In this document: in pieces, positions 47,469 to 58,849 of the stretch
How the letters are laid out: the number at the start of each line of letters is the position of its first letter
Numbering within the stretch: position 1 is the stretch's first letter
NCBI RefSeq assembly: GCF_001584725.1
Contig: NZ_CP014606.1
Coordinates: forward strand, 806,001-870,000
Reading direction: 5' to 3'
DNA from: an endosymbiont 'TC1' of Trimyema compressum
Lineage (GTDB): Bacteria; Bacillota; TC1
DNA: 64,000 nt
Position numbers and translations under genes: made by a program
The notes under the pieces: generated by a model
Told to the model about the DNA's origin: nothing
The model's input: the letters and a program-made list of their open reading frames with translations, nothing else
Databases searched by the model: none

Positions 47469-49576
47469 TTATTTATTTGTATCTTTATTATTTTTTCTTT
47501 TTAAAAACCCTATTCCACTAAGTAAACTCCCAACTGTAAGTAAAATAATACTAGAAAACATAAACACAGAATGCCCTGTTTTTGGCAAAGATGAAATATT
47601 TAAAATAGATAAACTATCATTTGATTTTTCAAATGTTAAGGGTTGGTTTACTGTCCCTGAATAATTAGCAGTTGCATTCCCAATCACTACAGAATCTTCA
47701 AAAGTGAAACTTAATAATTTTATTTGTGCATCAAGATTATACCAAATAATCTCATTACCATTAATACTATAGTTTCCAGATGAATTCTTAGGTGGAACTA
47801 TCTCACCTTTTTGATTTTTTATAGGCGAAACTAATTTAAAAAAAGAACAATATTGAATAGTTGGTAAAAATATATTTTGATTATCTAGTGTTAAATAATC
47901 TAAATTAATTAAATTTCTCATTTCAGGTGGCAATATCATTATTTCATTATTCTTTAATAAAAGCTGCCTTAAGTTAACTAGTTTACCAATTTCTCTTAAA
48001 TCAACAATACCTTTTGATTCCAAATTTAAAATTGTACAATTTGTTATCATATCATCTGTTAAAGAAGCATTAACATCTCCATCTGCTATAGCATCAGCTA
48101 TAGCTAGTGCTAATGAATAATCTGAAAAAGTATTTGCTATTGAATTATTACTTAATTTCCATATAGCATATAGCATAATATCCTGATTAGGCATTTTGGT
48201 ATTGGAAAAATCCCAAGCAATACCACTTCCATCCGGCGCAGTATTCCAGCCAACAAAAGAATAGCCATTACGAATCGGATTAGAAACAGAGGTTGCAAAA
48301 TCATCTGTAGCAATTATTTGGGAATTTGGAGTACTCCTGTCTCCACCATTTATATTAAATACTAAATTGTGGGAAATTCCTTTCCATTGAGCAAATAAAG
48401 TAACATCATTGTTAGGCATAAGTGATGTATTAAAATCCCAAGTGACACCAGTTCCATCTTTTGCTGTATTCCAACCTTTGAAAATATATCCTGTGTAACT
48501 AGGATCAAGTACAGATGTTGCTAATCCCACCTAATGCTAATATTTGAGTCCCAGGTAAAGAACCATTTCCGCCATTTAAATCAAAGGACAATGCTCGAGT
48601 TGTATATACTAATGGCTGAACAACATTTCCTGAAAAAGGCGCACTAGCACTACCAATTGAAATTGTTTGTTTAAAAGAAAAATTCACTGAAGTAGTTGTT
48701 GGCAATAAATTACTTCATGTAATATAATTTCCATTAATAGCATAATTTCCAGTTGAATCATTTAGGGGCACGGTCATTCCATTTTCATCCTTAATAGGAG
48801 ATAATAATTTAAAAGATTGACCACAAGGAGCATTATCCAATAAAATTTCTTGTCCTTCTAGCACTAAATAAGACATTTGTGATAAGTTACTAAGGCTACT
48901 AGGCAAAACTGAAAAATAATTGTAGGAAATATCTAATCCTTCCAAATTCTGTAAGTTATCAAAATTATCAGAAAGTCTTGATAATTTATTATTCTCTAAA
49001 TACAAATAATTTAAATTTGTTAAATTACCAATATTTGCAGGTAATGCTGCTAAAAAATTATTTGTTAAAACTAATGATTGTAAATTTGTTAAATTACAAA
49101 TACTATCTGGTAAAATAGTTATTTTATTATCAGATGAATAAATCGAATCTAAGTTAACTAAATTACCAATTGAATCTGGAAATGTAGTAATTTCATTCCA
49201 TTCAACAGATAATGTATGTAAATTACTTAAATTACCAATGTTTTCAGGTAAAGAAGTCAACTGATTTTTCCATAAATTCAACTTAGTTAATTGGCTAAAT
49301 ATTTCAATTCCTGTAACATCTGTTAAATTTTTCTCTTGCAAATTAAGTGTTTTCGTTTTTAATATGTCTGTGCTTATAACATCTGTTACAGAGCATCCAA
49401 AATAATCAGCCATTACTTGTGCAGTATTTGTATTAGGAAACTGTTGCTGAAAAGTTACATCTTTGTCCACTAACTAATCCTTGCTTTCCTATTATCAACC
49501 CTATGGAAATTGTACCAATAACAATAATCGCTGATATTATTTGCAAGCATCTATTTAGTGTATTTTTTTCATACAT
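47469..49576 (-). pseudogene. Sortase-anchored leucine-rich-repeat surface protein, broken
   Basis: Original gene of about 700 codons. The ATG at 49576 (GAGAGGTG site) opens a hydrophobic signal-like segment IISAIIVIGTISIGLIIG. Leucine-rich repeats follow (LTSLPENIGNLSNLHTL and similar units, about 49300-48880), then two Listeria-Bacteroides (InlB B) repeats around GYIFKGWNTAKDG and GYSFVGWNTAPDG. A second short LRR block comes next, and the end is the cell-wall sorting signal LPKTG, a hydrophobic helix and KRKNNKDTNK. Lesions are a frame shift near 49470, an in-frame TGA where TGG (Trp) is expected at about 48715, and a shift near 48530. Probably an adhesin. Confidence 0.88.
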
Positions 49577-49765: not shown

Positions 49766-50343
49766 TTAACTTCTTTTAATTAATTCTTCCTCAATATCCT
49801 TGAGCTTCACATTTTTAACTTTAAACAATACCATTAAATGATAAAGTAAGTCACTGGCTTCATAAATCAATTCATAATTGCCATCATTTTTTGAAGCTAT
49901 AATAACCTCTGATGCTTCTTCGCCTACCTTTTTCAAAATCTTATCAATGCCTTTTTCAAAAAGATATGTAGTATAGGAACCTTCTGGCATATTCTTATAG
50001 CGTTCTTCAATAACAGCAGCTAAAATACCCATTCTTTTCCCAAATAGCACATCGCTACGATCTTCATCACCCATATTAACATCTACTTTCGTATTTAAAT
50101 ATTTATTTAAATCATAGTGAAAGCAGCTTTTCTCGCCCTCATGACAAGCACAACCTATTTGTTTAACTTTAATTAAAAGAGTATCTTTATCACAATCATA
50201 AGCAATTTTCTTAACCTTTTGAAAATGACCACTGGTTTCGCCTTTATGCCATAATTCTTGCCTGCTTCTTGAATAGTAAACAGCTTCACCAATTTCAAGG
50301 GTTTTGACCAGAGATTCAAGAGACATATAGGCCAACATCAGTA
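49766..50343 (-). pseudogene. hisIE: Phosphoribosyl-AMP cyclohydrolase/ATP pyrophosphohydrolase, N-terminus lost
   Basis: HisI-HisE carries out the second and third steps of histidine synthesis. The cyclohydrolase part starts at [12 protein letters not shown] and keeps [16 protein letters not shown] and the zinc cysteines QIGCACHEG; the HisE domain ([28 protein letters not shown]) is complete. The first 15-20 family residues are replaced by out-of-frame hisF sequence, because a deletion joined the two genes near 50343. An open frame from 50395 could yield a hybrid protein, and the C-terminal HisE half might still work. Confidence 0.85.
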
Positions 50344-50757
50344 CCATCCTCTTTTCTTTTTGCATCAATAGCCACAACAATGCATTGAGAACCAAACTTT
50401 TTAGCTCCTTCTGTAATCAAACTAGGATTTTCAATAGCTGGTGTGCAAATTGAAATTTTGTCTGCACTAGCTCTTAAAATTTTTTTAATATCTTTCTATA
50501 GTCTTAATACCGCCACACCAACTGTAAAAGGTATATAGACTTCCTCAGCAGTCTTTTTCACAACATCAATAATATTTATCTCTGTTTTCATGAGAAGCCG
50601 TTATATCTAAAAATACAAGTTCATCTGCTACAGCTTTATCATAAAATTTTGCCATATCAACTGGATCGCCAGCATCTTTAATATGGACAAAATTAGTTCC
50701 TTTTACAACTCGACCTTCTTTAACATCTAAACAAGGAATAATTCTCTTTTTTAACAT
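50344..50757 (-). pseudogene. hisF: Imidazole glycerol phosphate synthase cyclase subunit, truncated
   Basis: HisF converts PRFAR to IGP and AICAR with ammonia from HisH. The start [21 protein letters not shown] is clear, followed by [20 protein letters not shown] and [18 protein letters not shown], but in changing frames (breaks near 50585, 50500 and 50480). The gene ends at about residue 138 of the usual 250, where hisI sequence begins. About 110 C-terminal codons, including the second half-barrel, are missing. Confidence 0.92.
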
Positions 50758-50758
50758 T

Positions 50759-51484
50759 CTATTTCTCCCCTACAATAACTTGAGCTTTACTGAAATTTAT
50801 AGAACCTTCATAAAGAGCTTTACCTAAAATAACTTCATCTACGCCAAAAGCCTCTAGCTTACAAACATCCTTAACATCTTTTAGCACTGCCATGCCACCA
50901 GAAGCAGTGACTTTCAAGCCTGTTGCCTCAGCAAAACCTTTAGTTTCTTCTAAATTTGGACCAGTTAAAGTACCATCCTTACTAATGTCTGTATAAATGA
51001 TTCGTTCAATACCTAACTCTTTCATTTCAAGTCCTAGCTGAATGGCTTCTTTTTTTGTATCTTCTAGCCAACCTTTTGTCCTTACAATTCCATTTAAAGC
51101 ATCAATACCTACAGCAATACGCTCACCATAAACAGCTGCAGAGCAGGCAACTAGAGCCATATTTTCAATAGCCGCTGTTCCTAATATAACTCGATCAACA
51201 CCCATATTTAAATAACGGGCAATGGTTTTCATATCTCTAATACCACCACCTATTTCTAAAGGTACATCAACTTCATTAACAATTGCTTCAACGATTTTCA
51301 AATGGGTTGTATCCCCTTTATAAGCGCCATATAAGTCTACTAGGTGAATTCTTTTCGCACCTAAGGCTTTCCATTTTCTAGCAATTTCAACAGGATTCCC
51401 ATAGACAGTAGTCTTGTCAAAATCCCCTTTATACAAACAGACACATTGGCCGTCTTGCATATCAATAGCTGGTACTAATACCAT
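50759..51484 (-). CDS. hisA: ProFAR isomerase
   Basis: Isomerises ProFAR to PRFAR in histidine synthesis. The 241-residue TIM barrel has the catalytic Asp near residue 8 (VPAIDMQDG), GGGIRD, and the second catalytic Asp in AVGIDALNG; its length is normal. It overlaps the end of hisH and is followed by the broken hisF with one base between. The reading frame is intact, but the pathway around it is not, so the enzyme probably has no substrate. Confidence 0.95.
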
Positions 51485-52089
51485 TTGTCCACCAACTTTC
51501 CAAAATTATTTAATATTATTAAACCTTTATCAGAGCTTTTCTCTGTATGAAATTGAATGCCAAATACATTATTAGAAGCCACAATAGCAGGAATAGTTTG
51601 ACCATATTCACAAGTTGCAATTACATATTCACTATTATCTGGGTAAGCCTGATAACTATGAACAAAATAAAAATCTTCATTATTATTGAGACCGTCTAAA
51701 AGAATAGAATGTTTTTTAATGCAAATATTATTCCAACCCATATGAGGAATCTTGTAGCCAGTTCTAATCTTTTCAACGGTGCCTTTAAGAAAGCCTAGTC
51801 CCTTGTTATGACCATCTTCTTCACCACTCTCGAATAAGAGTTGCATCCCTAAACAAATACCTAATAGTGGTTTATTGTCTGCTACAATTTTCTCTAAAAA
51901 AATAATTATATTTCTTTCATGTAAAGCTTTCATACCATCAGCAAAGGCACCAACCCCTGGTAATATATACCCTTTACATTTATCTAAAGCTGAGATATCA
52001 TCACTGATAACAGTGGTAAAACCATTTTTATTTAAAGCTTTTTCAACACTGACTAAATTGCCAATACCATAATCAATAATACCAATCAT
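51475..52089 (-). CDS. hisH: Imidazole glycerol phosphate synthase glutaminase subunit
   Basis: Supplies ammonia to HisF from glutamine. The 204-residue class I amidotransferase begins IGIIDYGIGNLVSVEKAL and has the nucleophile region LGICLGMQLLFESGEE. The catalytic His/Glu motif reads FHTEKSS where the family has FHPEKSS. The frame is complete, but the partner HisF is truncated. The changed Pro may be an early mark of relaxed selection. Confidence 0.93.
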   Translation of the reverse strand: MIGIIDYGIGNLVSVEKALNKNGFTTVISDDISALDKCKGYILPGVGAFADGMKALHERNIIIFLEKIVADNKPLLGICLGMQLLFESGEEDGHNKGLGFLKGTVEKIRTGYKIPHMGWNNICIKKHSILLDGLNNNEDFYFVHSYQAYPDNSEYVIATCEYGQTIPAIVASNNVFGIQFHTEKSSDKGLIILNNFGKLVDKWY

Positions 52090-52680
52090 TAGAGAGAACC
52101 TTTATTAGAGGGAATTTCATTGCTTCCAGTATCCATCACAGCTTTTTTCAAACTACGTGCAAACCCTTTAAAAATACCTTCAACAATATGGTGAGTATTT
52201 TTACCTTCCAAAAGCTTCACATGTAAATTCAAACCACAGCTCATAGTAAAAGCTCTTAAAAACTCCTCAACTAATTCTGTTTCAAAATTTCCCAGTAAAG
52301 GAATTGGCATTTCAGCCTTAAAATTCAAATAAGGCCTACCCCCTAAATCAAGGGCAACCATAATTAGTGCTTCATCCATTGGTAATATAATATCCCCATA
52401 TCTAACAATACCTTTTTTATCGCCTAAAGCAGTTTTAAAAGCTTCTCCTAAGACAATACCAACATCTTCAACTGTATGATGCCCATCAATTTCCAAATCA
52501 CCTTCAACATCTACCATTAATGAAAATCCGCCATGTTTTGCAAATAGGTTAAGCATATGATCAAAAAAACCAATGCCAGTTCCGCCTTCAAAAAACACCA
52601 TTTCCATCAATATTTATAGATAAATTAATTGCTGTTTCATTGGTATTGCGTGTTTTTCTACAAATTCTTTCTTCCATCAT
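52089..52680 (-). pseudogene. hisB: Imidazoleglycerol-phosphate dehydratase, frameshifted
   Basis: The sixth step of histidine synthesis. From the ATG at 52680 the first 30 codons (ERICRKTRNTNETAINLSI, then NIDGNG) match HisB and then stop. The rest, from GTGIGFFDHMLNLFAKHGGF, continues in another frame with the metal ligands HHTVEDVG and the late HHIVEGIFKGFARSL. One extra T in a T6 run near 52596 explains the break. A downstream ATG could give a protein lacking the first strands. Confidence 0.88.
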
Positions 52681-53959
52681 TTAACCTCACTAAAATTGCA
52701 TTTTCATGCCCATCAAATCCCTCAACTGCTGCGAGTTTTGCAGCGTACTTGCCATATTTATTGAGGGCATCCTGAGAATAGTTAATAACACTTGTCTTCT
52801 TTAAATACATATGAGTATTTAAAGGTGAATAAAATCGTCCAGTTCCTCCTGTAGGTAATACATGATTAGGTCATGCAAAATAATCTCCAATTGGTTCAGG
52901 GGTATAGTGCCCTAAGAAAATTGCTCCTGCAGAAGTTATACTCCCCATTACCTCATATGGTTTTTCAATTGCTAGTTCTAGGTGCTCTGGCCCATAAGCA
53001 TTGGCAAACTCAATAGCTTCTTCTAAGTTTTTCGTAACAATGATAGCTCCATTAGTTTCTAGAGATTTCCTAGCAATGGCTTCTCTTGAAAGAACCTGTA
53101 ACTGTCTTTCCACCTTAATTGCTACAGCATCTGCTAAAGCTTCACTAGCTGTTACAAAAATAGCTGATGCTAAAGTATCATGCTCGCCTTGAGACAATAA
53201 ATCAGCTGCAAGATACTGAGGCTTTGCACCTTCATCACCAATAACTAATATTTCACTAGAACCCGCCAACATATCAATATCAACATCACCATACACAATC
53301 TTTTTAGCAATTGTAACATAGATATTTCCAGGTCCCACAATTTTATCTACTTTTTTCAAAGTTCCTGCCCCATAAGCCAGCGCTGCAACTCCTTGAGCCC
53401 CACCTACTTTATAGATTTCTTTTACCCCACACAATTTAGCAGCTACTAAGGTGTAAGGATTCATAGAACCATCTGCTCCTGGTGGAGAAATCATTACAAG
53501 CTCTTTCACACCTGCAACTTTACCAGGAATTGCTGTCATTAAAACAGACGACGGATAAGCAGCAGTGCCTCCAGGTACATACAATCCAACTCTTTTTAAT
53601 GGTTTAATTAATTGACCAATAACAATACCATCTTTTCTAGTATCTAATTGTAGACCCGATTAGCTGTTTCTGGTGAAAATTTCAACATTATTGATGGCTA
53701 AATCTAAAGCCTTTAAAAATTCATCATCTACCTTATTAAATGCTTCTTCTATTTCTTTTTCAGAAACTCTAAATTGATTTTCATTTAAATTGGGACCATC
53801 ATAAGTCTTTGTATAGTTTCTAACAGCCTCATAGCCATCTTTTTTTATATTCTGAATCATTGTATTTACTTGACTGTATTTTTCATCTTCACAAAGAGAG
53901 TGGCTTTTATTTATTAGACCATTAATGGCAGCCTGGTCACTATAGTATATTTTTCTCAT
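52658..53959 (-). pseudogene. hisD: Histidinol dehydrogenase, broken
   Basis: Performs the last two steps of histidine synthesis. The start at 53959 overlaps the end of hisG. The N-terminal part and the core (YVPGGTAAYPSSVLMTAIPG; VGPGNIYVTIAKK; ADLLSQGEHDTLASAIFV) are clear. Two frame shifts occur near 53675 and 53650. An in-frame TGA at about 52871 replaces the Gly codon of GDYFAGPNHVLPT, after which the rest (PTGGTGRFYSPLN to the end) runs in the same frame. Confidence 0.92.
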
Positions 53960-54635
53960 TGTCGGTTCCTCTCTACCCATTTTTTTAAAATAGTATTTAC
54001 TTTTTCAACTAAATTAAATATTTGTTCATTTTTTACTCTATAACTTACATTATTAGCAATTAAACGTGCTGTTGCTGGAAATATAGAACACACTTCTACT
54101 AACCCATTTTCTCTTAAAGTAGTTCCAGTAGAAACAATATCGACAATCATGTCATCTAAACCAATACAAGCAGCTAATTCAATATTACCATGTAAATGAA
54201 TAAGCTCCATTTGTAAACATTCCTGTAGAAAAATGCATGTGCAACATTGATAAACTTAGTCGCAACTCTCTTATGATTTAACAAGTGAAGAGTAAACGGA
54301 TCAATGCCTTCATATTTTTCAACAAGACTTTTAGGTGCTGCAACAGCAAAATTACATTTACCAAAACCTAAATCTAATAATTCAAAAACATTTCGTTGTT
54401 CTTCTTCAATAGTATCTTTGCCTACAATACCAATATCTGCTACACCATACTCTACATAAATAGGCACATCTGTTGGCTTGCAAATTAAATAGCGTACGTA
54501 TCCAAAAGAAAATTTAAGGGTTCTTGATTCAGGTTCAACACCACCCACTGGTAATCCAGTTTTAGCCAAAAGCTCTAATGACTTAGCTCCTAACCTTCCT
54601 TTAGGTAAAGCTATTGTTAATTCATCTTTAATCAT
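53956..54635 (-). pseudogene. hisG: ATP phosphoribosyltransferase catalytic subunit, frameshifted
   Basis: Starts histidine synthesis. This is the short form, which needs HisZ. The ATG at 54635 (GGGGAGG site) leads to LTIALPKGRLGAKSLELL, VEYGVADIGIVGKDTI, RVATKFINVA and FFYRNV. One inserted base near 54215 then moves the rest, MELIHLHGNIELAACIGLDDMI and IVSTGTTLRENGL, into another frame. With one base removed it would be a normal 225-residue protein. Its partner hisZ is also broken. Confidence 0.92.
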
Positions 54636-54636
54636 A

Positions 54637-55537
54637 TTATTCCTCCCCTTCCAAATCAATAGAGACACGTTTGTTCTTTTTTCTTAATTGATCTGCTTTT
54701 TTAAAATCTTGAAGAGGATTATCAGTAATCATAACTTTTTCAACTGCCCTACTTGCTTCTCTCTGAACCAGAGTACTAATATAAACATCTACATCAATTG
54801 CAAAACCAACAGCACATAAGGGCTTATAGTAAGTTTCTAGTAGATGGTCATAACGACCACCTGTTAATAAAGGTACACCAGCACCTTCACCATATCCTTC
54901 AAATACAAGACCAGTATAGTAACTAAAATCTCCTAGAAGACTAAAATCAAAAAAACATTTTCCTCATAGCCCATACCTCTAAGAATAGATAGTATTTTTC
55001 TAGTCTTTCAATGGCTTTTTATACTCAGTCTGACTGGAAAAATCTCTGATTTTTTCAATAAATCCTTGAACGCCATTTTGTCTTGCCAATGTTATTATTT
55101 TATCTGAATCCTCAGCTTTCATAATACTGTTTAAGGAGTCTTTTTCATTGATTAATTCAATTCCCACTTGCTTGCGCTGTCTTTTTTTACCTTCTTTAAA
55201 ACTTTTTGACTAAAGACTTCGCCTGCGTAACAAAGTCGCAAAGGATAGGCTGCGTTGCCCTTAAGGTGGGTACCAACTAAACGAGCAATAGGTGCTGTCA
55301 TTTGTTGGTCTTAATACCAACAAATCTCCTGTATTATCGATTAAAGTAATATAATCTCTTTCTTCTTCTTTTTCTTTGCCAATTATATTCCATGTTTCAA
55401 GAATAGGTGTTCTTACCTCATCATATCCCCACAAAGAAAAATTATATAATAAATCATCAACAATTACTCTTTGTGTATAAGCTTCTGCTGGTAAGTAGTT
55501 TCTCATAACTTCAGGTATTAATAATTCTTTTTTTCAT
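54637..55537 (-). pseudogene. hisZ: ATP phosphoribosyltransferase regulatory subunit, broken
   Basis: HisZ is a HisRS-like subunit that activates short HisG. The ATG at 55537 is followed by an A7 run; with six A the frame reads KKELLIPEVMRNYLPAEAY and onward, as in the family. The frame also breaks near 55265 (after VLRPTNDST), near 55200 and near 55010-54960. The C-terminal FSYYTGLVFEGYGEGAGVPL, TGGRYDHLLETYY and GFAIDVDVYI remain. First gene of the operon, one base before hisG. Confidence 0.9.
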
Positions 55538-55581
55538 TTATTTCTCCTCTTCTTATTTTAACACTTTAGCTTAATAAAACC

Positions 55582-55610
55582 ATTGTACTATAAAATAAAA
55601 AATTTTGCAA
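55582..55610 (-). promoter_or_regulatory. Sigma-A promoter of the his operon
   Basis: Minus-strand TTGCAA (55605-55610) and TACAAT (55582-55587) with a 17-base spacer, about 45 bases before the hisZ start. The promoter looks sound although nearly every gene it serves is broken. Confidence 0.75.
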
Positions 55611-55621
55611 GACCTCTTTAA

Positions 55622-55653
55622 AAAAACAAGGGAGTTTATACTCCCTTGTTTTT
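55622..55653 (-). terminator. Terminator after yerC
   Basis: AAAAACAAGGGAG / CTCCCTTGTTTTT, a perfect 13-base stem with a 6-base loop, overlapping the yerC stop codon and ending before the his promoter. Confidence 0.9.
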
Positions 55654-55984
55654 ACTTTTTCTTTTTTAATTTTAACAATGTATTTTTGTAACCATCAGCA
55701 CCATAATGCAAACATCTTTTAACACGACTGATTGTTGCTGAACTTGCTGCTGTCTTTTCTACAACATCAGCATATGTTGCATTTTTGTCTAACATTTCAA
55801 CTACTAGCCATCTCTGTGCCATTGATTTGATTTCTGCAATGGTGCAGAGATCATCAAAAAACGCTTTACATTCTTCAGTGGTTTCTAAAGATAAAATGGC
55901 TTCAAATAGGGCTTTTAAATCATCCTTCTCTACATAACCTTTATACATTTTTACCTCACTCTCAATCAAGACTTGCGCTATCAT
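55652..55984 (-). CDS. yerC: TrpR-family DNA-binding protein YerC/YecD
   Basis: A 110-residue protein of the TrpR-like YerC family. The helix-turn-helix lies near residues 73-95 (TAASSATISRVKRCLHYG), preceded by EIKSMAQRWLVVEML. Members near his operons have been proposed as histidine regulators (HisR), while TrpR itself senses tryptophan. It is encoded just upstream of the his operon but has its own terminator. It is intact while its likely targets are broken. No clear operator palindrome was found at the his promoter. Confidence 0.9.
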   Translation of the reverse strand: MIAQVLIESEVKMYKGYVEKDDLKALFEAILSLETTEECKAFFDDLCTIAEIKSMAQRWLVVEMLDKNATYADVVEKTAASSATISRVKRCLHYGADGYKNTLLKLKKKK

Positions 55985-55996
55985 CTAACAAAAAAC

Positions 55997-56098
55997 TTAT
56001 TTTTTCTTCCTGATTCCAATAATAATTGCAATAATAGCTACAATAACAATGATAATGCCGAAAATCCAAATAATATATTGTCCTGTATCTGGTAACAT
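55997..56098 (-). CDS. 33-residue LPDTG-helix-KKK microprotein
   Basis: The ATG at 56098 has a strong AAGGAGGG site 6 bases upstream. The product starts with the sortase-type pentapeptide LPDTG at residues 2-6, continues with a single helix of about 22 hydrophobic residues (rich in Ile) and ends with RKKK. This is a complete cell-wall sorting signal with no exported domain before it and no signal peptide. It lies between the NifU-domain gene and yerC on the same strand. The function is unknown; it may be a simple membrane peptide. Confidence 0.75.
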   Translation of the reverse strand: MLPDTGQYIIWIFGIIIVIVAIIAIIIGIRKKK

Positions 56099-56112
56099 AC
56101 AAAACCCTCCTT

Positions 56113-56352
56113 TTACATATTAACGGCAATCACTTCTTGGACGCCAGGTACTTTTTCTTTCAGGATTCTCTCAATCCCCATTTTTAAGGTCATTAAAGCG
56201 CCTTTACATCCTTGACAAGCACCTTGTAATTCCACATATACTTCCCCTTCATTTTCAGCGACTTCAATTACTGTTACATCGCCTCCATGAGCTTGCAATG
56301 ATGGTCGGACTAATTCTAAAGCTTCCTTTACTTGCTCCTCCACTTTATTCAC
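56113..56352 (-). CDS. NifU C-terminal domain protein (Fe-S scaffold-like)
   Basis: A 79-residue protein of the NifU C-terminal family, with the cluster-binding CxxC in ACQGCKGA near residue 42 and the preceding RPSLQAHGGDVTV. Such stand-alone Nfu proteins carry or donate Fe-S clusters. The start is GTG at 56352 with a GGAGG site, and it overlaps the end of a frameshifted small gene. The length is normal. Confidence 0.92.
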   Translation of the reverse strand: MNKVEEQVKEALELVRPSLQAHGGDVTVIEVAENEGEVYVELQGACQGCKGALMTLKMGIERILKEKVPGVQEVIAVNM

Positions 56353-56661
56353 CTCCTTTATTAAACAAACCTTTTATTTTTTTATTCGCATTCTTCAATG
56401 TGGTTTTGATTCTGCCATCTGAATCAGGCACAATCCATTCAGTCATTTCCACAGACCATTTATCTTCAGAATACTTTTTCTTCAAAGCATACTCAACTAA
56501 TACTTTTAAATTTTCTCTTGAACGGGGTTTATTTTTTTACCTTTAATTTTCAACTGAATAATTGGATTTTCAACTGAAATAATCTCATAATCCCCAACAT
56601 CTTCTCTTATATAATTCCTAGAAGTAACTAAATATGCTTCTACGCTACTGTTATCTGCCAC
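56345..56661 (-). pseudogene. Small conserved-looking protein, frameshifted
   Basis: A GTG start at 56661 with an AAAGGAG site opens DNSSVEAYLVTSRNYIRED and runs to KKINPVQEKI, then stops. The sense-like reading continues in another frame as RENLKVLVEYALKKKYSED, WSVEMTEWIVPDSDGRIK, and a lysine-rich end that overlaps the NifU start. With one base changed near 56535 it would be about 104 residues. I do not recognise a family. It is probably co-transcribed with the osmC-like and NifU genes. Confidence 0.65.
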
Positions 56662-56682
56662 TGTTTTATTCTCCTTTAACTT

Positions 56683-57081
56683 TCAAATAGGCTTCCACAC
56701 TTTTGAAGGATTTTGAATCTGTCTCTTAACATGACACACATTCATCGCAGCAACTAATGCTTTACGATATTGTTCTGGATATGAATCCGGTACATTAACG
56801 ACTAAATCAACAGCCTCAACTAATTGACTGGTTTCATTATAATTCATTTTTACTTCAACATAAACATCTCTCAAATCAATATTTCTATGTTGCAAAAACT
56901 CTAATACCACTGTACTACTACAAATACAAACACCTAAGGCTGCAAAATAAAGTTCATAAGGAGTCGGTGCTGAATCCTCGCCACCATCTTCTGGTGGTTG
57001 ATCGCTTATCACATTTTGATTTCTGAAAGAAACATTTGTTTGAGCGCCTCCTGGAAAGGTCACAATCATTTTATCTACCAT
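56683..57081 (-). CDS. OsmC family protein
   Basis: Members of this family reduce organic peroxides using two cysteines. The 132-residue protein has the two expected cysteine regions, LGVCICSSTVVLEFLQHR near residue 50-67 and MNVCHVKRQI near 113-122, and TPYELYFAALG before them. The ATG is preceded by AGGAGG. The exact subgroup (OsmC, Ohr or YhfA-like) is not certain; the short N-terminus suggests a YhfA/OsmC-like protein. Confidence 0.88.
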   Translation of the reverse strand: MVDKMIVTFPGGAQTNVSFRNQNVISDQPPEDGGEDSAPTPYELYFAALGVCICSSTVVLEFLQHRNIDLRDVYVEVKMNYNETSQLVEAVDLVVNVPDSYPEQYRKALVAAMNVCHVKRQIQNPSKVWKPI

Positions 57082-57151
57082 CGTTACCGCCTCCTATCTT
57101 CCTTCTTATTGTACCTTATTATGATACAAGTGACAATAATAAGATGCTTAT

Positions 57152-57631
57152 TTATTTATGATAAGTTTCATGATTCATAATTTTAAAACCTCGGTAGACC
57201 TGTTCACATAAAACTAAGCGCATTAGCTGGTGGGGAAAAGTCATTTTAGAAAAAGAAAGAGGGCACTGAGCTTTCCTCTTTATTTCATCTGATAGACCTA
57301 AATACCCCCCTATAATAAAAACTATGCGGGATTTGCCATAGGTCATTATTTCCTCTATTTTACCTGCTAGTTCTTCTGAAGATAAAAAATTGCCTTTCCT
57401 ATCCAAAACAAAAATATAACAATCTTTTGGTAATTTACTTAAAATTAATTGACCTTCTTTATCCATTATTTTATATTCATCACTAACAGAAGCATTATTA
57501 GGAATTTGAACTTCACTTACTTCTATAATATTTATTTTTGCAAAACGGCTTAAGCGTTTCTCATATTCCTTAACACCATCTCTAAAATAAGATTCCTTTA
57601 AATTACCAACACATAAAAAAGTTACATCCAT
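57152..57631 (-). CDS. rlmH: 23S rRNA (pseudouridine1915-N3)-methyltransferase
   Basis: RlmH methylates pseudouridine 1915 in helix 69 of 23S rRNA. The 159-residue SPOUT protein has the family start VTFLCVGNLKESYF, LDRKGNFLSSEE, the knot loop FIIGGYLGLSDEIKRKA and the end EQVYRGFKIMNHETYHK. The length is typical. It lies 2 bases after a broken M20 peptidase. Confidence 0.96.
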   Translation of the reverse strand: MDVTFLCVGNLKESYFRDGVKEYEKRLSRFAKINIIEVSEVQIPNNASVSDEYKIMDKEGQLILSKLPKDCYIFVLDRKGNFLSSEELAGKIEEIMTYGKSRIVFIIGGYLGLSDEIKRKAQCPLSFSKMTFPHQLMRLVLCEQVYRGFKIMNHETYHK

Positions 57632-57633
57632 AT

Positions 57634-58776
57634 TTATGAACCTAAAAGTTTATCTATTAAATCAATATAACAGTAAGCACTTTTGACTAGGCTATCTATG
57701 GATATAAATTCTTCTGCTGCATGAGCTTCTTTAATATTACCTGGGCCAAATACTAAAATTGGAATACCATTTTTACTTAAATGAGAACCATCTGTCCAAT
57801 AGTCTACACCACATACTTTACTCTTCAGCCCCCATTTCAGTTGTGACTTCTTTTAAGGCTAATACTAATGGATCCTTGATCATCCGTTTCCATAGGCCCT
57901 CTAAAAGCAGTTTCTGCCATAAGAGTAACTTTAATATCCTCCTTTTTTAAGCCCATATTTTCACCCACATTAATGATTTCCTCAAATAAATCTTCTTTAG
58001 TCTCACCTGGAATGTAGCGTCTATCATATGAAAAAACAACTATCTGGAACAATATTATTCTGCATACCTCCTTCAATCCGACCTACATTTAATGTTGGTT
58101 TCCCACAATAAGGGTGACTTTTATTACCTAAAACAGGTAACAGGTCTCTTCTCAAAGCTTCAATATATTCCGTACACTTATAAATAGCATTATCACCTAA
58201 ATGAAGCATACTACCATGAGCTGCTTGACCTGCTAATTCAACTTTTATACCCATACTACCTTTATGAGCAACAACTATATTTAAGTCTGTAGCCTCTCCA
58301 ATAACTGCCATATCTGCAAAATCTTTTTTAGAACCTAGCGCCATACCACCTTAACTAGCATCTGGACATTCTTCACCTATAGTACCTGCAAAAACTACAT
58401 TGCCATTAATTTGCATATTGTTTTCTTTAGCGTAAATAAAAGCATAGACCATAGCACCTCTATGCCACCTTTCATATCAACACTGCCTCTGCCCCAAATT
58501 TTGCCATCTTCGATATAAGCATCAAAAGGTGGTAATGTCATATTATCAGGTCTAACAGTATCCATCTGGCACTTCACCTTTTAGTGTAATATAAATATTT
58601 TTTCGCCCATCCTTAATTTCTTCCATTTCAACGTCAAAACCGTAAGGCTTTACTAATTCTTTCAAATAGTTCCCGACCATAGTTTCGCCTTGTGGAATTA
58701 AATAATGACTTTTAATTTTCACAATATCTTGAACAATTTTTATTAATCTTTCTTCATTAACTTTAATGTTTACCAT
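57634..58776 (-). pseudogene. M20 family peptidase (ArgE/DapE type), broken
   Basis: M20 peptidases are dinuclear zinc enzymes that split peptides or deacylate amino acids. The ATG at 58776 follows AGAGGTGG. Conserved segments remain: DMKGG with GRGSVDMKGGIE, then VAHKGSMGIKVELAGQAAHGS, GEATDLNIVVAHKG, and TAFRGPMETDDQG. The first metal His is not found where GHxD is expected (KCQMDTV). Breaks fall near 58560, 58450, 58350, 58030 and 57840. The reading ends at 57634. No full product is possible. Confidence 0.85.
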
Positions 58777-58849
58777 GATGCCACCTCTTCTTTTAATGTT
58801 ACTAACCATATTATATCAAATTTTTTACTAAAATACTTGAATCAAAATC

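Follow-up and report, generated by a model that had tools for sequence, protein, structure and literature searches.

The stretch of DNA analysed (the window) comprises 64,000 nucleotides of the genome of TC1, an endosymbiont of Trimyema compressum. The following features surround the small open reading frame (ORF) under study, given in the direction of reading of the minus strand:

56113 to 56352, minus strand: nfu, intact, encoding a NifU-like domain protein of 79 aa (PF01106, 90.1 bits, positions 1-67 of 67)
56106 to 56111, minus strand: ribosome binding site AGGAGG, 7 nt 5' of the ATG of the ORF
55997 to 56098, minus strand: 33-aa ORF, MLPDTGQYIIWIFGIIIVIVAIIAIIIGIRKKK, with LPDTG at residues 2-6, GQYI at 6-9, a hydrophobic helix at about 9-29 and an RKKK tail
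55652 to 55948, minus strand: yerC (Trp-repressor-like, PF01371), the next gene downstream, its start taken at MYKGYVEK, with a longer candidate start at 55984
55622 to 55653, no strand assigned (listed on the plus strand): terminator-like hairpin at the end of yerC, symmetrical, A-rich/T-rich on both sides, and a probable transcript end

The ORF is present as originally predicted, with LPDTG, helix, basic tail and a good ribosome binding site, and runs on the minus strand from 56098 to 55997. One residue (M) lies ahead of LPDTG, and the best 19-residue hydrophobic stretch covers residues 9-27 (mean Kyte-Doolittle 3.55). The reading frame is open for just 7 codons 5' of the ATG, and inspection of the frame and the upstream sequence showed neither an N-terminal signal peptide nor an exported domain 5' of LPDTG. 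The stop codon of nfu lies 14 nt upstream of the ORF, and as nfu is complete there is no space for a lost surface domain. A missed frameshift that would have fused nfu with the ORF was considered but rejected on three counts: the match of nfu covers the whole domain, a separate ribosome site precedes the ORF, and a cytosolic Nfu ahead of a helix predicted to be N-out would make no sense topologically.

Gene order in the nearest relatives was rlmH, NifU-like gene, yerC and hisZ, the second and third being separated by about 10-15 nt. Since these two genes almost adjoin in the relatives, the window's genome has osmC, nfu and the small ORF in addition. Homologues had been expected beside yerC or nfu; that expectation failed, as no ORF of this kind was found at the yerC loci of 29 other genomes.

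The assembly of the window's genome (1.62 Mb) is full of frameshifts. In the stretches read around its LPXTG matches, 15 of the 19 LPXTG-type matches lay in open frames shorter than 100 aa, and most of the short frames inspected were truncated ends of surface proteins with LPKTG, so that a short LPxTG frame alone is poor evidence of a short gene here. The ORF differed from those ends in having an intact cytosolic upstream neighbour, a frame that opens only 7 codons early, and LPDTGQY instead of LPKTG. With so many frameshifts, an indel in the AAAAAA run at its 3' end could change the final residues of the ORF.

Many housekeeping and surface-protein genes were split by frameshifts, among them hisF, hisD, hisZ, a NifU-like gene, a peptidase and several LPKTG proteins (window 49766-58809; own-genome loci L087-L098), which suggests uncorrected assembly indels or unusual gene decay. 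A single TGA separates the body of a surface protein from its in-frame LPKTG anchor at L024:1350-1599 (own genome, C1:426880; ...NISR-stop-MMLPKTGG...), for which base error, decay and read-through are candidates. A 353-codon surface-protein frame on the minus strand of the window (47469-48530) ends in LPKTG, a helix and a basic tail, and is probably an ordinary sortase substrate.

Of the five other genomes in the GTDB family (handles G001 to G005), three carried short homologues, none with an N-terminal domain and each with just 7-8 residues ahead of the motif: LPETGQYI in G005 (MEFSIIRLPETGQYIVMIIGGILVLVGILIAIFLVVNKKN, 40 aa), LPATGQYI in G004 (73 aa, acidic tail) and IPQIGQYI in G002 (71 aa, charged tail), the charged tails of the last two being about 30-36 residues long. 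A ribosome site of its own precedes each homologous gene. Three of the four members retain LPxTG, and G002 has IPQIG; P and G are invariant, and x differs in all four (D, E, A, Q). The original prediction had turned on whether relatives carry the same short form or else no homologue, or one with a long N-terminal domain, and it is the short form that three of them carry. Its view that the ORF is not the last part of a lost surface protein likewise holds, with a stand-alone short gene downstream of an intact nfu and these short forms in relatives.

The four sequences delimit a narrow family, [LI]P-x-[TI]-G-Q-Y-I followed by a hydrophobic helix and a basic tail, which is found solely in one small GTDB family; the ORF product is short, carries PxxGQYI, one helix and basic residues after it, and has no large domain. 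A profile of the four scored the members at 52-123 bits and the next match in ten genomes of the class at about 25 bits, the gap to the next match being the informative part of a profile built from the members themselves, and it found no convincing match in 399 genomes of the phylum. The DNA pattern of a ribosome site plus PxxGQYI occurred in 13 stretches of about 85,000 species genomes, among which the only two short helix ORFs were those of G002 and G005, and in 0 viral contigs. No match was obtained in phages by tblastn with the 33-aa protein or in plasmids with the G004 form. The ORF product had no match in PDB, no meaningful match in PHROGs, and none in Pfam and NCBIfam apart from TIGR01167, and a literature search for stand-alone LPXTG small proteins returned nothing relevant.

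That the ORF arose by chance and was never a gene is very improbable. Thirty-three codons are few and the assembly is rich in frameshifts, but the homologues strongly disfavour this reading, as does the pattern AGGAGG-N(3,10)-ATG-LPxTG, which had 1 match in the window and none in 100 dinucleotide shuffles. Among the matches to a ribosome site followed by M-LPxTG in the 399 phylum genomes and in viral contigs, no other ORF had a convincing helix and basic tail.

In an ungapped alignment anchored on the motif, the four members scored 61-82 mutually and at most 55 against 37 other LPxTG-type tails, which were collected from the loci and include a few probable chance frames. With the helix alone, five of the six pairs exceeded composition shuffles (p < 0.02), and the window's protein against that of G005 did not (p = 0.07). 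Codon position 2 was the best kept and position 3 the worst in all six pairs of the four genes, which is the pattern of coding DNA. The full-size tail closest to the family (scores 53-55) was IPQTGGYIIVLAGVMILSIG, which belongs to an exported G004 protein of 230 aa; its likeness fits an origin of the family from a sorting signal but is not proof of it.

At L106:273-2095 of G004, the genes of two exported proteins, one of 208 aa and one of 230 aa that ends in IPQTGGYIIV, a helix and KNKR, stand in a row with a signal peptidase I-like gene, a set that resembles a TasA/camelysin-SipW group.

Gene context varied among the relatives. The small gene starts about 15 nt past a gene for a membrane-anchored trypsin-like protease (PF13365) in G002, where a terminator comes after it, and in G005. 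In G004 it stands alone, convergent with an LPxTG surface-protein gene, and is preceded by a promoter-like site and followed by a strong hairpin. No trypsin-like protease of that kind was found in the window's genome, and the protease is therefore not a fixed partner; no neighbour is conserved, with the protease in G002 and G005, none in G004, and nfu and yerC in the window. In relatives, the trypsin-like protease and the small LPxTG-like gene belong to a conserved block (L143:3424-6612; L146:1449-4805) that goes on with a rhodanese lipoprotein of two domains and a multi-helix membrane protein. One contig end in G005 (contig 65; L075:1-35) translates to ...SLIHISEPTR, a typical reading of leftover sequencing adapter.

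The same protease is present in G001 and G003. What follows it in G001 is a frame of 29 codons (METERYILITIGGVL...) that lacks a good ribosome site, and the remnant DNA is weakly similar to the G005 gene (p = 0.01). G003 has no small gene, and its sequence past the protease stop aligns with the sequence 3' of the small gene of G005. Decayed in G001 and absent from G003, the gene is accessory and readily lost.

This dispensability, together with the prevalence of frameshift-made ends among the other short LPxTG frames of the window's genome, is what would be expected of a functionless relic, in which the end of a surface-protein gene has survived and is decaying or translated by chance. Such a reading is nonetheless improbable: the gene upstream is nfu and not a surface protein, ribosome sites and intact short frames recur in four genomes at three unrelated places, and conservation is of the coding type.

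The NCBIfam model of the LPXTG anchor (TIGR01167) scored the ORF product above its cut-off (22.0 bits; cut-off 15.9), and Pfam PF00746 scored it below (12.2 bits; cut-off 20). Among the homologues, G005 was above the TIGR01167 cut-off, G004 was below it and G002 gave no match. The check for sortase genes in the window's genome that had been proposed with the original prediction returned one PF04203 match (6.8e-24), and the six genomes of the GTDB family, the window's own included, encode exactly one sortase apiece. The ORF product has the C-terminal LPxTG, hydrophobic helix and basic tail, in that order, of LPXTG wall-anchored proteins. Lacking both a signal peptide and an exported domain, it does not belong to the LPXTG-anchored surface proteins, and it further differs from them in its conserved QYI and in having a homologue without LPxTG; it could still serve as a minimal sortase ligand.

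Charge asymmetry across the helix predicts an N-out/C-in orientation in all four members. By the positive-inside rule, insertion would leave LPDTG at the outer face of the membrane and RKKK in the cytoplasm, a placement that brings LPDTG within reach of sortase. The main live rival to the reading preferred below is accordingly a genetically encoded sortase substrate, decoy or C-peptide mimic, in which LPDTG is bound or cut, either releasing MLPDT and leaving a transmembrane C-peptide or keeping sortase occupied. It is unlikely. In its favour are the order of LPxTG, helix and basic tail at the predicted outer face, the TIGR01167 scores of the window's protein and of G005, the variation of x beside a constant P and G, and the single sortase of every genome. 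Set against it are IPQIG in G002, which lacks both L and T, the failure of TIGR01167 on G004 and G002, the charged tails of two members, the conservation of QYI, which sorting signals do not require, and the retention of sortase in G003 and G001 without an intact small gene. The IPQIG member and the two long charged tails show that sortase cutting, though possible, is not required by the whole family; on the same grounds, the description of the ORF as only a sorting signal suits the window's protein and is too narrow for its homologues.

Two known systems offer parallels, which are analogies and not tests. In Streptococcus gordonii, the C-peptide that stays in the membrane once sortase has cut is reported to act on the histidine kinase SGO_1180 (as reported in PMC11326707 and PMC11502775). 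The ORF product would likewise be a free transmembrane peptide with the make-up of the post-cleavage remnant, but differs in being the product of its own gene and in retaining LPxT. In Enterococcus faecalis, HtrA clears unanchored pili (PMC11326707), and HtrA is of the same broad protease kind as the protease whose gene the small gene follows in G002 and G005, which by analogy may favour a role in the sortase pathway. A bolder form of the idea, itself improbable, is a family of free C-peptides, bare sorting signals that, by binding directly to a membrane sensor or to the cell's one sortase, would report or tune anchoring load, co-transcribed in some species with an HtrA-like protease policing the same pathway.

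Two other groups of small proteins are similar in build. Small single-helix bacterial membrane proteins modulate larger membrane proteins, and the ORF shares with them its size, one helix, strong ribosome site, operon position and lineage restriction; it differs in having LPxTGQYI at the predicted outer face. Type I toxins of the Fst kind are proteins of about 33 aa with one helix and a charged tail, as is the ORF product. It differs from them in lying inside a housekeeping operon, with no sequence match and no Rfam antisense RNA nearby (Rfam over 54500-58000, antisense RNA of type I toxins included, gave no match).

The best explanation, with a probability of about 0.5, is that the ORF is a real accessory gene whose product, an ultra-short single-pass membrane protein, derives from a sorting signal and acts as a membrane peptide, sortase not being what defines the family. 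The ancestral sorting signal was probably that of a surface protein, and the peptide would most likely use its helix and GQYI face to contact other membrane proteins; the single sortase may recognise or cut the LPxTG members. Weighing against this explanation, the family consists of just four sequences, which are short and hydrophobic, and its position is not conserved between the window and the relatives; the retention of LPxTG in three of the four members, x varying throughout, is the pattern to be expected from sortase recognition; and the gene has been lost or has decayed in two relatives.

If sortase cuts or binds the peptide, a sorting signal would be usable as a free-standing gene product that tunes surface anchoring, and this would extend the C-peptide signalling reported for Streptococcus gordonii. 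If the peptide acts independently of sortase, the finding is a warning that LPxTG models, here TIGR01167, can label tiny membrane proteins as 'cell wall anchored'.
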